From a virus: a DNA stretch of 27,114 nucleotides. Positions 11,361-16,377 of this stretch are shown here, in pieces. The first letter of the stretch is position 1, and each line of letters opens with the position of its first letter. The notes beneath the pieces were generated by a model, which had not been told where the DNA came from, did no database searches, and worked only from the letters and a program-made list of their open reading frames with translations. Made by a program: the position numbers and the translations under genes. The DNA is taken from IMG/VR virus record IMGVR_UViG_3300009506_000216, positions 1-27,114 of that record. One strand, given 5' to 3'.

Positions 11361-11870
11361 TCATGGCAACGTGGGCGGAGTTGTTGGCAGGACGCCCACA
11401 TAATGTATATGGCTTAAAAAGGGTATCCCGCCTGATATCAGGTCGCCGTTTGTTATTTCAATATTCCCGTTTGTCAGGTTTATATCTCCTTCAATGTCCA
11501 TGTCCCCTGTCATGTTGACATTGCCGTTTATTTCCAAATCCCCGTTAATAGTGCCGTTGCCTTCGATAACATAAGTCCCATCATTCTTGAAATGCATCGA
11601 AGCAGAAACCGCGTTCCCCAGCGGGTCGGTGCTGTAAATTCTTATCTCGCCGGGCTGGGCTAAGAGAAACTTGTTTATGAATGCCAGAATGAGCCCGCGC
11701 CCGGCGGTTGTTGCCTTCATGAAAGCGCCCTTTATGCCGGGGTAAGGATTCGCGTCAATTCCGAAGGGCGCGGCAATCTCGTTCTTTCCCGTCTTGCCTT
11801 TAAGGGGCTCGTGTATGGCTATCCTGAGCCCCCTTTCCTGCCCCGTCTGCTTTATTAGCGTAATCCTCAT
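11361..11870 (-). CDS. Tail spike / baseplate assembly protein V (Mu gp45-like)
   Basis: A 169-aa membrane-piercing spike candidate. Residues 31-100 look like the small beta/OB region (EIAAPFGIDANPYPGIKG). Residues 105-148 show a period of about six residues (GTINGD, LEINGN, VNMTGD, MDIEGD, INLTNG, NIEITN), as in the triple beta-helix of trimeric spikes. The end has SHIHYVG, with His154 and His156 in an HxH arrangement like the iron-binding tip of P2 gpV. A short Pro/Thr tail follows. Its start overlaps the tape-measure stop as ATGA. It is somewhat shorter than Mu gp45. Confidence 0.85.
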   Translation of the reverse strand: MRITLIKQTGQERGLRIAIHEPLKGKTGKNEIAAPFGIDANPYPGIKGAFMKATTAGRGLILAFINKFLLAQPGEIRIYSTDPLGNAVSASMHFKNDGTYVIEGNGTINGDLEINGNVNMTGDMDIEGDINLTNGNIEITNGDLISGGIPFLSHIHYVGVLPTTPPTLP

Positions 11871-13726
11871 GGCATCACAAAGCCTTCGTCCATGCCTGCC
11901 GTGCGCGGAGTCATTTGTATAACTCCTGGCGCGCCGTCCTCTGTCATGCGCGCGCGGCCCGTCCTGTCCTCTATTACAAGCTTGTTTTGTGTCTCGTTTG
12001 TGGTTTCGGATATCTTCTTTGTCATTGCCGCTTGTGGCGCTACTATGCCCGCGCCGGTCCCGCCCTCAACTTTGACGTCGCCGCCGAAGCCTTCGGATAT
12101 CGCGCCCTTTATGGCCCCTGTTATGGAATCTGCCGCGCGGCCCAATGCACCGAGCCCCGGAATCTTCGAAAGCAGTTTCATGAATAGAATGATTGGAGCT
12201 ATCAGAAGCCCGACTATCGCGGCCCCTATGGCAATAATCTGTTTCCTGAAAACGATTATAGCGGCTATAGCGGCTGTTATCGCCAGCACGACCAGTATTA
12301 CAGGGTTAGCGGCCATAATCACATTGAACGCTATCATTGCGATATTTAAAGCCAGTATCGCCCCGTGTACGATCGCTATTGCCGAAGCAACCGCAAGTAC
12401 AGGGGCCGCTATCTTTGCGAAGGCAACAAGGGTTTTAATAACCCATGGGTTAGCCTCCAGGAATTTATTGATAACCCTTATAACTGACGTAAGCCCCTTT
12501 ATAATACTGTTTATGGAGGGCTGTAACTGTTTGAAAATGGTTAATCCTAGACCTTCGGCCGCGCTTTTCATCGTCTTGAAAGAGCCCAATGTCGTGCCGC
12601 GCATTACATCGGCCATTTGCTTGCTTGCGCCCGCCGCGCCCTCGAGCTGCTTCTGATAGGCCCTGAGCTTGTCCGCCCCGGCGTCAAGTAGTATGTTTAC
12701 GCCTGCTATCGGTATCTTTCCGAATATCTCATTGAGCACGGCCGCCTTTTCGGCAGTGCCCAGCTTCTTTGTTGCACTGTCAAGGTCGCCGAGTATATCG
12801 ACGACATCGCGCAGATTCCCCGATGAATCCTTTGTTTGTACTCCCATGCGTTTTAACTGCTTAGCGGCCTCTGGAGTAGCGGCGGCCAATCTAAGGAAAA
12901 CGTTTTTAAGGGTTGTCCCCGCCTGGCCGCTCTTTATGCCGGAATTGGCAAGCACTCCTGCCATTGCAGCGAATTGCTCAAGCGATGAACCGGCGCTTAT
13001 TGCAACGGGGCCGCCCTCCTTGATTGTCTCAAAGAGCCTTATCATATCAGTATTTGATGTTGTGACAGTCTTTGCCATAACATCATTAACTCGGGCAAGG
13101 TTTTTAGATAATTGCGCGGCATCGCTTGTGGCAAGGCCCATGGCCCCTAGAGTATCGGTCGCAATGTCCGTGGCCGTGGCAAGGTCCGTCTGTGAAGCGG
13201 TTGCAAGGTCAACGACTTTAGGCAGCGCGGCAATTGATTGCTCGGCGTTCATCCCGGCCATTGCCAGGAAGTTCAGGCCCGAAGCCGCCTCCGATGCCGT
13301 GAATTCAGTTGTGGCCCCCACATCGCGCGCGGCGGCCTCTAGCGCCTGAAACTCTTTTGTCCCCGGCCTTATGGCCCCCGGAAACTTAGCGGCGGCATTG
13401 ACAATTGTTTGTTCGAATTCAAGGCCGGTACTGATTGCGCTTTGTGCCGCAAGGGTAAAAGACGCGATCCCAGCTATCGCCACGCCAGCGGTAAACGCTT
13501 TCTTGAATCCCTTGCCGAATATTTCAGTTTTGCGGCTGAGCTTTGACAGGACGGCTGTTATCTTGGTTTGCGCTACCTTGAAAGAGCGGACGGCCGAGGC
13601 GCTCATCTGCTTGAAACGCCCGGCCATCCCGCTTGCTGCTGCTTTTCCGCTGCGGGCAATGTGCTTTAAAACCCTGGTTGTCTTGTCTATGGCTTTATAA
13701 GCTGTGCTTACGGCGAAATCAGCCAC
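11867..13726 (-). CDS. Tail tape measure protein
   Basis: A 619-aa protein that sets tail length and may channel DNA on injection. The start is a GTG at 13726 with GGAGG six bases upstream. The conserved tape-measure core covers about residues 120-300: TEFTASEAASGLNFLAMAGM, ASQTDLATATDIATDTLGAM and GQAGTTLKNVFLRL. A strongly hydrophobic region at about 415-515 (many Ala, Ile and Val) holds several potential membrane segments. The C-terminus (about 545-619) is polar. At roughly 0.15 nm per residue the tail would be about 90 nm, short for a myovirus and similar to Mu. It overlaps the frameshifted chaperone frame by 8 bases. Confidence 0.93.
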   Translation of the reverse strand: MADFAVSTAYKAIDKTTRVLKHIARSGKAAASGMAGRFKQMSASAVRSFKVAQTKITAVLSKLSRKTEIFGKGFKKAFTAGVAIAGIASFTLAAQSAISTGLEFEQTIVNAAAKFPGAIRPGTKEFQALEAAARDVGATTEFTASEAASGLNFLAMAGMNAEQSIAALPKVVDLATASQTDLATATDIATDTLGAMGLATSDAAQLSKNLARVNDVMAKTVTTSNTDMIRLFETIKEGGPVAISAGSSLEQFAAMAGVLANSGIKSGQAGTTLKNVFLRLAAATPEAAKQLKRMGVQTKDSSGNLRDVVDILGDLDSATKKLGTAEKAAVLNEIFGKIPIAGVNILLDAGADKLRAYQKQLEGAAGASKQMADVMRGTTLGSFKTMKSAAEGLGLTIFKQLQPSINSIIKGLTSVIRVINKFLEANPWVIKTLVAFAKIAAPVLAVASAIAIVHGAILALNIAMIAFNVIMAANPVILVVLAITAAIAAIIVFRKQIIAIGAAIVGLLIAPIILFMKLLSKIPGLGALGRAADSITGAIKGAISEGFGGDVKVEGGTGAGIVAPQAAMTKKISETTNETQNKLVIEDRTGRARMTEDGAPGVIQMTPRTAGMDEGFVMP

Positions 13727-13901
13727 CTTGCCCTCCAGCCTCGTTTATCTTTTTCTCTACTCTCTGCGCCGCCTCATACCAGTAATGAAGTCCCTTTAGC
13801 GGCTCGTGGCTTATTTCAAGCCCCCCTATTACATCGGGGTTAAAGTAAAACGTTGCTGCTATTGATATAACCTTGTCATTCAGCTCGTATATCTCAGGCC
13901 A
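13719..13901 (-). CDS. Tail assembly chaperone, frameshift extension (gpGT-like part)
   Basis: An open frame of 60 codons that has no ATG, GTG or TTG start of its own. It begins in frame just after the T-run at 13903-13908 and ends with TGA at 13719, overlapping the tape-measure GTG. It reads WPEIYELNDKVISIAATFYF, then NPDVIGGLEISHEPLKGLHY, then a helical end rich in Glu, Lys and Arg. With frame 0 the product would be a fusion of 225 or 226 aa. By analogy to lambda gpG/gpGT and to Mu, this extension would bind the tape measure during tube assembly. The site requires a +1 or -2 shift, not the common -1. Confidence 0.75.
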   Translation of the reverse strand, partial: WPEIYELNDKVISIAATFYFNPDVIGGLEISHEPLKGLHYWYEAAQRVEKKINEAGGQGG

Positions 13902-14397
13902 GAAAAAACAGGGCGTATGATCTCAGGCTTGCATGGTCGCTGGTATCAAGGCCCTTGTCCCCAAGCTCGTTTTCGGAATTCTTGAGAATGTTCCTAGGTA
14001 TGCCCGAGAGCGCGGAAACCATGCATAGCGCCCTTTCGTCAACCGCGCCTATCTCAACATCCTTCAATGAATTGAAAGCCTGATTGACGCCGATAAAAAA
14101 GCGCATTTCAATGCTCTCAACCATGGCCGAGCTTTTCGGGACCAGGGGAACTTGCAGCCTGTACGATGCGCGCTTTTTCTCGAAATCGAATTTCAGCGCG
14201 CCGCTTTGTACAAGCCTTATGAGGTCCTTGATATTCTGGTCGAAAGTATGTTCCCTCTTGCTCTCGGATATGCGCTTGAGGTCCAGAAATCTTTTTACCT
14301 CAAGCTCGGCCGCTTCCTCGTCGACCTTCATCCCCGCTGTAAAGGCCGTTGCATCAAATGATTCTGCCTTGCCCGTTGCGCCCGCCTCTTTGCTCAT
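13894..14397 (-). CDS. Tail assembly chaperone (Mu gp41-like / gpE-like), frame 0
   Basis: A 167-aa protein directly before the tape measure. An N-terminal Ala/Glu-rich region (1-35) leads to helices such as EHTFDQNIKDLIRLVQSGAL, a beta region (RASYRLQVPLVPKS), and a helical end (DERALCMVSALSGIPRNIL). The position between tube and tape measure and the length fit the chaperones that keep the tape measure soluble. The last residues ALFFLA are encoded across a TTTTTTC run just before the TGA, where a fraction of ribosomes probably shifts into the following open frame. AAGGAGG precedes the ATG at 14397. The family match is by position and layout more than by motif. Confidence 0.8.
   Translation of the reverse strand: MSKEAGATGKAESFDATAFTAGMKVDEEAAELEVKRFLDLKRISESKREHTFDQNIKDLIRLVQSGALKFDFEKKRASYRLQVPLVPKSSAMVESIEMRFFIGVNQAFNSLKDVEIGAVDERALCMVSALSGIPRNILKNSENELGDKGLDTSDHASLRSYALFFLA
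13902..13908 (-). promoter_or_regulatory. Putative programmed +1/-2 frameshift site TTTTTTC
   Basis: On the minus strand the chaperone frame reads CTG TTT TTT CTG GCC TGA. A +1 move of the Phe tRNA from TTT to TTC, or a -2 slip from TTT back to TTT, puts the ribosome into the 60-codon open frame that begins TGG CCT GAG. A -1 shift would reach a stop after seven codons. The stop of frame 0 lies 7 bases after the T-run. Confidence 0.65.
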
Positions 14398-14407
14398 GAA
14401 GTCCTCC

Positions 14408-14809
14408 TTATACGTCCCGTTTTAGTTCCGTACCCTTGAACATCACGGTTACGGTTGAATTGCTGTCATTCTTTGCCATGTCCCCGGTCGGCTTCGCCTT
14501 GTGCGTGTAAACGCTTCCGTTCATGTGCTCGTATGAAACGGTTGAAAAGCCGTTTGCCCTGGACGCCTCAAGCAGCCATTCGTGGTCGCCGCTTGAATCG
14601 TCAACGTCAAGGACAACCTCGCGTTCACCGGGCCTGCTGCGCACGATATCCCTTACCGTCCCGTCGCCGTTTGGCTCTACTTCTTCCGTATAGCGGCCGC
14701 CCATTATACGGGAGTTATCGCCGCCGCTTGCGACGGCAAAGTTGCGGGTCTGGCCGTCAGGCCTTTTGATGAAAACGCTCAGTAAATCTCCGCCCTGTCC
14801 GTTACCCAT
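14408..14809 (-). CDS. Tail tube protein (Mu gpM-like)
   Basis: A 133-aa protein directly after the sheath gene. It has the beta-rich pattern of Mu-type tube proteins: GDLLSVFIKRPDGQTRNFAV at the start, GGRYTEEVEPNGDGTVRDIV at about 37-56, and TVTVMFKGTELKRDV at the end. The acidic turn DVDDSSGDHEWLLEAS lies near the middle. It polymerises in hexameric rings around the tape measure and forms the inner tail tube. GGAGG lies eight bases upstream of the ATG at 14809. The length is close to the 118 aa of Mu gpM. Confidence 0.83.
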   Translation of the reverse strand: MGNGQGGDLLSVFIKRPDGQTRNFAVASGGDNSRIMGGRYTEEVEPNGDGTVRDIVRSRPGEREVVLDVDDSSGDHEWLLEASRANGFSTVSYEHMNGSVYTHKAKPTGDMAKNDSNSTVTVMFKGTELKRDV

Positions 14810-14835: not shown

Positions 14836-16377
14836 TTATCCGCCGAAGTTGAAGCCCCAGCGTATTGTACTGTCGGCCTGCCTCACGTTGCCCGAGTATA
14901 TCAGCGTAAAGGCTGTTTCCATACGGTCGGGGTTTTGTGTGCCTATGTCCGCCTCTACCGTGTCCCTGGATTCATCGGCGCGCGTGGTTATGGCAGCCCT
15001 CGCCAGGTCCGTGATAAATTCGCGGACAATGCTTTTCCATTTCCTCGGGTCAATGGCTTCGGGGTTGTCCGTCTGCGTTACATCATCAACCAGTATCTTG
15101 TTCATAAGGGTGCTTTCCTCAAGCACCCTGTACTGGTAGATAACGTTCATAGAACGCCCGAGCACGTTCACCACCCTGAAATAAGGCGCGGCGGCAGGGC
15201 TGATGCCGTCAGGGTGGTAATGTGTATTGACGTCCTCGATGTAGTAAACGCCGTTGTTGAGCGTCACCGTGGAAACTCCCTTGCTTTCGATGTAATCGCG
15301 CAAGAGATAATCATTGAAGTCCCCGGCATCCGCCTGGTTAGCGGGCGCGGGCACGTCAAGGAGCGCTTGCCCTGAATATGCCTTGGGCGGATTCTCCGTT
15401 ACAGTAAGGGCGATTTTCAGGACAAAGGCGGCGGCGATCTCGAAAGTGAAGCCAGGGGAGCCTGGCGCGGGAGACTTGCTGTTTGTCATGTCAAGCTTGC
15501 GCGTGTCCGGTATGAGCGTTATATCGTCCTTATCGTTTTCCTTTGTCCCGTAAAAGGCGACGAAAGGTTTTGTGATAAGGGAATTCCACCGGCCCGTGTT
15601 TGCATCGGCCGCACCGTTGAAATCGGAAAGCTGGTCGAGCACTGTTTCCGCAACGTCCACGGCATTGACAACAACGTTGTACCAGGTTTCGCCGAAGTTG
15701 GCAAGGGCCGCCGTTATATCGTAAACGCCCACGCCGCCCGCGAATACCGGATTGGTATAGACTATTCCGGCGTAATCGTCCGCCTCTATGGTTACGCTTA
15801 CCTCGTTGCCGCTTGCGCCGTACCAGCCCACGGTAAAGTCAATGTCTATATCATTGCCCACGGCGGCCTGCACAATGCTGTCAAGCGGATTGAACTTGAT
15901 TTCGGCATCGAGGATATCCTTGATACGGCCCGCAAGCGATGTAACGTCGTCCGTTTTCAGGACCGTAAAGGGAATGCGCCTGCCGTTGACATTTGCATAA
16001 TGCGTAATGTTTTTGTCCGGGTTAACCAGAGCTATGTTTATACCGAGTGTGCCGGTTGCCTGGACCTTGCCCACGGCGGCCTGCACCGGGAAAAGGGTCG
16101 TCCTTATGGTTGAAAGGCCGCCTCCGGTTTCGGGCCTAAGCATACGCGCGGCCCTGTAGGCGGGCGATTTGTAGCCGTATGCTTCGCCTATCTCGCGGGC
16201 CGTCTGAAAGTCAATGCCCTTGTCGAATTCGGCCCCGGCTTCGGCTGCGGCCGATATGGGAGCTATCAGCGCAACCTGTACCGGCATGAGCTGCGGTATG
16301 TTGCGTAAGTCTATGAAATCAAGCTTGGTCCCTATCACCCTTGCGATTGCGGCCGCTGGTATCGCGTTGCTTATCAT
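14836..16377 (-). CDS. Tail sheath protein (Mu gpL-like)
   Basis: 513 aa, near the usual 490-500 aa of Mu-type sheaths. The N-terminus includes MPVQVALIAPISAAAEAG and FDKGIDFQTAREIGEAYGYK, then GGGLSTIRTTLFPV at about 85-98. The middle region carries NVVVNAVDVAETVLDQLSDF and SLITKPFVAFYG, typical of the sheath core, and the C-terminal domain holds the conserved helix-strand end TLIYSGNVRQADSTIRWGFN. It forms the contractile outer tube, which makes this a myovirus-type tail. GGAGGG precedes the ATG. Sheath, tube and chaperone are in Mu order. Confidence 0.92.
   Translation of the reverse strand: MISNAIPAAAIARVIGTKLDFIDLRNIPQLMPVQVALIAPISAAAEAGAEFDKGIDFQTAREIGEAYGYKSPAYRAARMLRPETGGGLSTIRTTLFPVQAAVGKVQATGTLGINIALVNPDKNITHYANVNGRRIPFTVLKTDDVTSLAGRIKDILDAEIKFNPLDSIVQAAVGNDIDIDFTVGWYGASGNEVSVTIEADDYAGIVYTNPVFAGGVGVYDITAALANFGETWYNVVVNAVDVAETVLDQLSDFNGAADANTGRWNSLITKPFVAFYGTKENDKDDITLIPDTRKLDMTNSKSPAPGSPGFTFEIAAAFVLKIALTVTENPPKAYSGQALLDVPAPANQADAGDFNDYLLRDYIESKGVSTVTLNNGVYYIEDVNTHYHPDGISPAAAPYFRVVNVLGRSMNVIYQYRVLEESTLMNKILVDDVTQTDNPEAIDPRKWKSIVREFITDLARAAITTRADESRDTVEADIGTQNPDRMETAFTLIYSGNVRQADSTIRWGFNFGG

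Follow-up and report, generated by a model that had tools for sequence, protein, structure and literature searches.

The tail module of a 27,114-base IMG/VR virus record (hereafter the window, meaning the whole stretch of DNA analysed) carries two overlapping reading frames, P1 and P2, and their arrangement points to programmed ribosomal frameshifting, which would yield a minor gpGT-like chaperone; we consider this reading probable, with +1 as the most likely direction of the shift. Few recoding events in phages are as well conserved as the frameshifts of tail chaperone genes. Shifts of -1, -2 and +1 have all been published for these genes, and the window is a further example of such recoding; what its comparison with related loci adds is an apparent change of direction confined to one lineage, in a family that otherwise shifts by -1.

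Two overlapping reading frames in a contractile-tail module

The window encodes a contractile-tail module on its minus strand, in the order sheath, tube, P1/P2, tape measure and then baseplate genes. The features referred to below are as follows.

14836..16377, minus strand: tail sheath protein of a contractile tail (PHROG 165, E=5e-50)
14408..14809, minus strand: tail tube protein, directly upstream of P1 (PHROG 4699, E=2e-17)
13894..14397, minus strand: P1, open reading frame of the putative short chaperone form, frame 0, 167 aa (PHROG 4648, E=1.7e-6; homolog in the relative L002 79% identical)
13923..13925, minus strand: upstream TGA terminating the P2 frame, which excludes an internal start (frame 2 translation ...A*DHTPCFFWPEI)
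13902..13908, minus strand: candidate shift site TTTTTTC, phased CTG_TTT_TTT_CTG (kept in L002 as CTG_TTT_TTT_CTC)
13719..13901, minus strand: P2, start-less second frame of 60 codons and a TGA, entered by +1 or -2 (PHROG 5697, E=0.0097, and E=5e-4 in a second search; conserved in L002)
13880..13882, minus strand: TGA met by the -1 frame after seven codons (frame reading)
11867..13726, minus strand: tape-measure protein with a GTG start, directly downstream (Pfam PF10145, E=1.9e-46; PHROG tape measure, E=1e-88)

The P1/P2 pair sits between the tube and tape-measure genes, which is the position of G/GT chaperones, and P2 runs into the beginning of the tape-measure gene. P1 has a strong Shine-Dalgarno sequence (AAGGAGGA; ribosome-binding-site duplex of -12.2 kcal/mol), and its 3′ end on the minus strand reads GCC CTG TTT TTT CTG GCC TGA, with the stop at 13894-13896. 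The codons of P2 extend from 13901 to 13722 (WPEIYELNDK...AGGQGG), and its stop codon (13721-13719) falls a few bases inside the tape-measure start at 13726. As P2 contains no ATG, GTG or TTG codon and overlaps P1, the two frames can be fused solely by a change of frame. A -1 shift would read TCT GGC CTG AGA TAT ACG AGC TGA, that is, seven codons and a stop, so that a shift of +1, giving a fusion of 225 residues, or of -2, which would give 226, is required. The original prediction had described the end of frame 0, the start-less 60-codon frame running from the T-run into the tape-measure start, the closed -1 path and the two fusion sizes in these terms, and each of them is borne out by the sequence. 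Upstream, the P2 frame is closed by the TGA at 13925-13923, which confines entry to the 29 nucleotides from 13922 to 13894. The second frame also contains the strong ribosome-binding site of the tape-measure gene, GGAGGG (13724-13740, with the GTG start at 13726); translation of the fusion and initiation of the tape measure would therefore overlap.

Neither P1 nor P2 matched a Pfam family. PHROG 4648, the match of P1, carries no function label; a gene of phage MAG7 annotated 'tail assembly chaperone' stands among the relatives of P1. The predicted structure of P1 is of low confidence (pLDDT 61, pTM 0.46) and gave no meaningful match in a Foldseek comparison with the PDB, and a sequence search of the PDB found nothing.

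In the interpretation that we favour, the gene would be a G/GT-type tail-assembly chaperone of a contractile-tailed phage. The majority of ribosomes would halt at the TGA that ends P1 and release the 167-residue protein, and a small share would shift at UUU_UUU_C and read 60 more codons to give the 225- or 226-residue fusion, the C-terminal part of which would be the counterpart of the T domain of lambda. By analogy with lambda, the short form would coat the tape measure and the rare fusion would recruit tail tube subunits.

Conservation of the second frame in a diverged contig

The sole close relative found is contig IMGVR_UViG_3300010413_000184 (L002), with protein identities to the window of 79% for P1, 77% for the tape measure and 83% for the sheath. 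Scans with P1, P2 and sheath alignments recovered this contig alone; a site-pattern scan of viral contigs returned it with seven others lacking any tail-gene match, where the pattern mostly marked a lipoprotein start, and scans of genome contigs with the tape measure as query gave no confirmed relative. The site in L002 reads CTG TTT TTT CTC GCA TGA, and its second frame likewise stands in the +1/-2 relation to P1. The second frames of the window and L002 are 51% identical. Neither contains a stop, against 5-8 stops in each of the two remaining frames. Across 59 ungapped codons, the P2 frame has a BLOSUM score of 153 and the others 55 and 34; when the same substitutions were placed at random, about 1 in 10,000 trials attained 153. 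This pattern indicates that the second frame is protein-coding in both contigs.

These comparisons leave very little room for an independent gene that begins within P1, or for a second frame that goes unexpressed. An ATG does lie upstream in the second frame of L002; in the window, however, an internal start is ruled out by the TGA at 13925-13923, P2 itself offers no start codon, and the frame is under protein-level selection and matches the shift-reached second frames of relatives. The original prediction had proposed related phages as a check, with a start codon proper to the 60-codon frame or loss of the T-run counting against it; L002 keeps both the T-run and the second frame, and its ATG belongs to a route that is blocked in the window.

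The conserved run also bears on two accounts in which the T-run itself varies. If sequencing or assembly had altered a true run of seven T (a -1 gene) or five T (one fused gene), a single base more or less would restore the usual relation of the family, which is -1 at 90 of the 93 loci surveyed below, or a continuous open reading frame. Such an error is very unlikely, since the same T6 and frame relation occur in two diverged contigs, and with seven T the window and L002 would both lack the X_XXY_YYZ phasing of most relatives. Transcriptional slippage, which would produce mixed mRNAs of which one (T5 or T8) joins the frames, would give the same fusion with no need for a ribosomal slip; but such slippage has been reported to require runs of more than eight T (PMC3711429), and the run here has six, ended by C, and we give this account marginally less credence than an error.

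The -1 shift is the rule in the wider family

In all of the named phages whose tube-to-tape-measure regions were read, a P1 homolog is followed by a second frame in the -1 relation. These comprise the Shewanella phages SppYZU01 and SFCi1, the Vibrio phages CKB-S1, VP16T, 1.009.O, 97.13, 1.030.O, 1.124.O and MAG7, Aeromonas phage AeroV_348, Oceanospirillum phage PD0307 and Pseudoalteromonas phage PY6; the further viral contigs that were read show the same arrangement. In the Bacteroidota phages phi3:1 and FCV-1 the second part resembles that of the window and L002 (PHROG 5697) and is reached by -1, and P2 matches proteins of Cellulophaga and Flavobacterium phages that are reached by this shift.

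A tape-measure alignment used as the query yielded 80 loci. Once contigs fetched more than once had been reduced to a single copy, 93 loci had a significant P1 and made up the survey set, some of them being near-identical. The second part is in the -1 relation in 90 of these, +1/-2 in two (the window and L002) and in frame 0 in one (L089). Among the -1 sites, T7 ending in G (39 loci) and T7 ending in A (15 loci) are the most frequent. Fourteen loci that first looked open in both shifted frames were all placed at -1 by second-part profile scoring; as its training set consisted of -1 second frames, the profile gives low scores to the window, L002 and the UGA case, the assignment of which depends mainly on frame layout. 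The position of the gene, the -1 homologs of both its halves and the conservation in L002 support the assignment made in the original prediction, a tail chaperone with a +1/-2 shift.

In a quick, midpoint-rooted tape-measure tree, the window and L002 group together (SH-aLRT 99) among -1 users, beside L099, another -1 user (support 92). The whole tree can be accounted for with two changes of state. The simplest reading is that the direction switched from an ancestral -1 in the lineage of the window and L002. The phasing of the sites is read directly from the sequences. Relatives that use -1, such as L020, have the same letters phased GCT_TTT_TTC, where two tRNAs would be able to slip back one base; in the window, CTG_TTT_TTT_CTG, the T6C has moved one base relative to frame 0. 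From this we infer that the phase of the window would lose the tandem -1 slip, in which one tRNA would face GUU, and would open both a +1 slip (E site UUU to UUU, P site UUU to UUC) and a single-tRNA -2 slip.

Direction of the shift

Within 13922-13894, the T6C is the sole spot where we see the prospect of good tRNA re-pairing. TTT TTT C occurs in frame once, and TTT followed by C 19 times, in the 8,061 codons of 26 window genes. In the window (CTG) and in L002 (CTC) alike, the UUU in the P site is followed by C, as in sites of the UUU_C class. On a +1 route, the P-site tRNA-Phe on UUU would slide one base to the better-paired UUC, and the preceding tRNA-Phe in the E site would re-pair perfectly too (UUU to UUU). 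The preference of tRNA-Phe for UUC, for which it has a higher affinity than for UUU, and the precedent of influenza PA-X, where a +1 shift at UUU_C was identified by peptide sequencing and no -2 peptide was found, both favour +1 (PMC3498833). The influenza A site, UUU_CGU, resembles that of the window in its UUU_C and in the movement of tRNA-Phe to UUC, but it is read by a eukaryotic ribosome with a rare CGU in the A site, and it lies in a gene for an unrelated protein.

Several features of the site count against this reading, and in particular against a simple +1 shift. The UUU_C +1 class expects a slowly decoded A-site codon; in the window's codon usage the A-site codons are not rare, at 16.7 (CTG) and 11.0 (CTC) per thousand, values that may not mirror the host tRNA pool. 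UUU_CUG is also found in frame at P1 codon 37, which indicates that UUU_C alone is insufficient for shifting. No Shine-Dalgarno-like stimulator was found upstream of the shift site, and RNA structure downstream of the window site was not significant (z=+1.1 and 0.0); the downstream 100 nt of L002 fold with z=-2.8. A lambda/HK97-type X_XXY_YYZ site with a -1 second frame is absent, as the -1 frame runs for no more than 7 codons in the window and 4 in L002. In positions 13880-13930 of the window, the sequence preceding the T-run, GCCTGAGATCATACG, recurs almost unchanged right after the run (GCCTGAGATATACGA); L002 has this repeat only in part, and it may be due to chance.

Alternatively, the same chaperone could be made by a Mu-like -2 shift, in which the P-site tRNA-Phe would move back two bases and add an extra Phe (UUC), giving the 226-residue fusion with the peptide ALFFFWPE. 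We regard this as possible but rather unlikely. The U6 run would let the P-site tRNA pair perfectly after moving back two bases (UUU to UUU), which speaks to possibility, not to use, and L002 conserves two UUU codons, not UUU_C alone. The E-site tRNA, however, would be unable to re-pair, its codon becoming UGU, so that the P-site tRNA alone would do so, and natural -2 shifts are rare. The Mu tail chaperone site, which reads CGG_GGG_CGA at the end of gp41 in the Mu genome, shares the homopolymer-then-C layout, and a -2 shift of about 2.2% is reported for it (PMC3498833). The Mu chaperone has the same frame relation as that of the window, with no kinship by sequence claimed, but its run is of G and not of U. 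A +1 shift in Mu would need the GGG-reading tRNA on GGC, and its preference for -2 therefore need not carry over to the window, where, unlike in Mu, +1 improves pairing because tRNA-Phe can also re-pair forward on UUC. Judging from the sequence, we favour +1 as about twice as likely as the Mu-like -2. The original prediction had left the direction open, rightly in our judgement, with tRNA re-pairing tipping the balance somewhat towards +1.

An in-frame UGA in another family member

In L089 (1905-2495) and L088 (records IMGVR_UViG_3300033143_005265 and 3300033148_000518), both chaperone parts lie in one frame with a single TGA between them (TAMYMVG*TADLDIVNTIAAG). As the neighbouring sheath, tube and tape-measure genes contain no in-frame TGA, L089 looks like a case of stop-codon read-through in place of a frameshift. 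The nearest neighbours of L089 in the tree are -1 users, and this member of the family may have replaced frameshifting by UGA read-through. A bolder proposal, to which we give a small chance, is that the shift in the window is truly -2, a second natural phage -2 site beside that of Mu, and that the family would form a series of -1, -2 (or +1) and UGA read-through in which the product is conserved and the route is free. The homologous genes provide a matched set of sites, T_TTT_TTG, T_TTT_TTC, TTT_TTT_C and in-frame UGA, which could be used to test what sets -1, +1 or -2 in bacteria and whether selection targets the product rather than the route.

Comparison with known chaperone systems

Xu, Hendrix and Duda reportedly described the gpG and gpGT chaperones of lambda and their -1 frameshift, a system covered in a later review (PMC5009743). 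Like the pair in the window, the lambda genes precede the tape measure and consist of a short form and a shift-extended form with a start-less second part; lambda uses -1, whereas the window requires +1 or -2. Since the window gene lacks a Pfam match, kinship to lambda G/T is not shown by sequence. The phages VP16T, SppYZU01, CKB-S1, AeroV_348 and MAG7 (PHROG 4648) have homologous P1, tape-measure, tube and sheath genes in the same order as the window and a T-run at the same place, but they require -1, mostly at C_TTT_TTT_TG or T_TTT_TTC.

According to the same review, shifts of -1, -2 or +1 serve, in different tailed phages, to fix the proportion of two products required for tail length and assembly; it names Mu for -2 and the tail chaperone of the haloarchaeal virus HSTV-2 as very likely +1 (PMC5009743). 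Forward shifts are also annotated in actinophage tail chaperones (PMC10885494). The likeness of the HSTV-2 and actinophage chaperones to the window is in the forward shift, by description only, with no claim of homology. Among the precedents cited in the original prediction, -1 in many tail chaperones and -2 in Mu hold, but the +1 shifts of Listeria phage PSA affect its capsid gene (cps) and its tail-shaft gene (tsh), not a tail chaperone (PMC5009743), and HSTV-2 is the better +1 precedent.

Annotation of the second chaperone frame varies among the deposited phages in the set L013-L023, L037 and L038: in some it is unannotated (for example SppYZU01, CKB-S1 and FCV-1) and in others it is entered as a separate gene (for example PD0307, AeroV_348, MAG7 and phi3:1). 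In three Vibrio phages, 1.030.O, MAG7 and 1.124.O (L022, L023 and L024), about 1 kb of small reverse-strand genes lies between the tube and chaperone genes, including DNA-binding ones (HTH or homeodomain-like).
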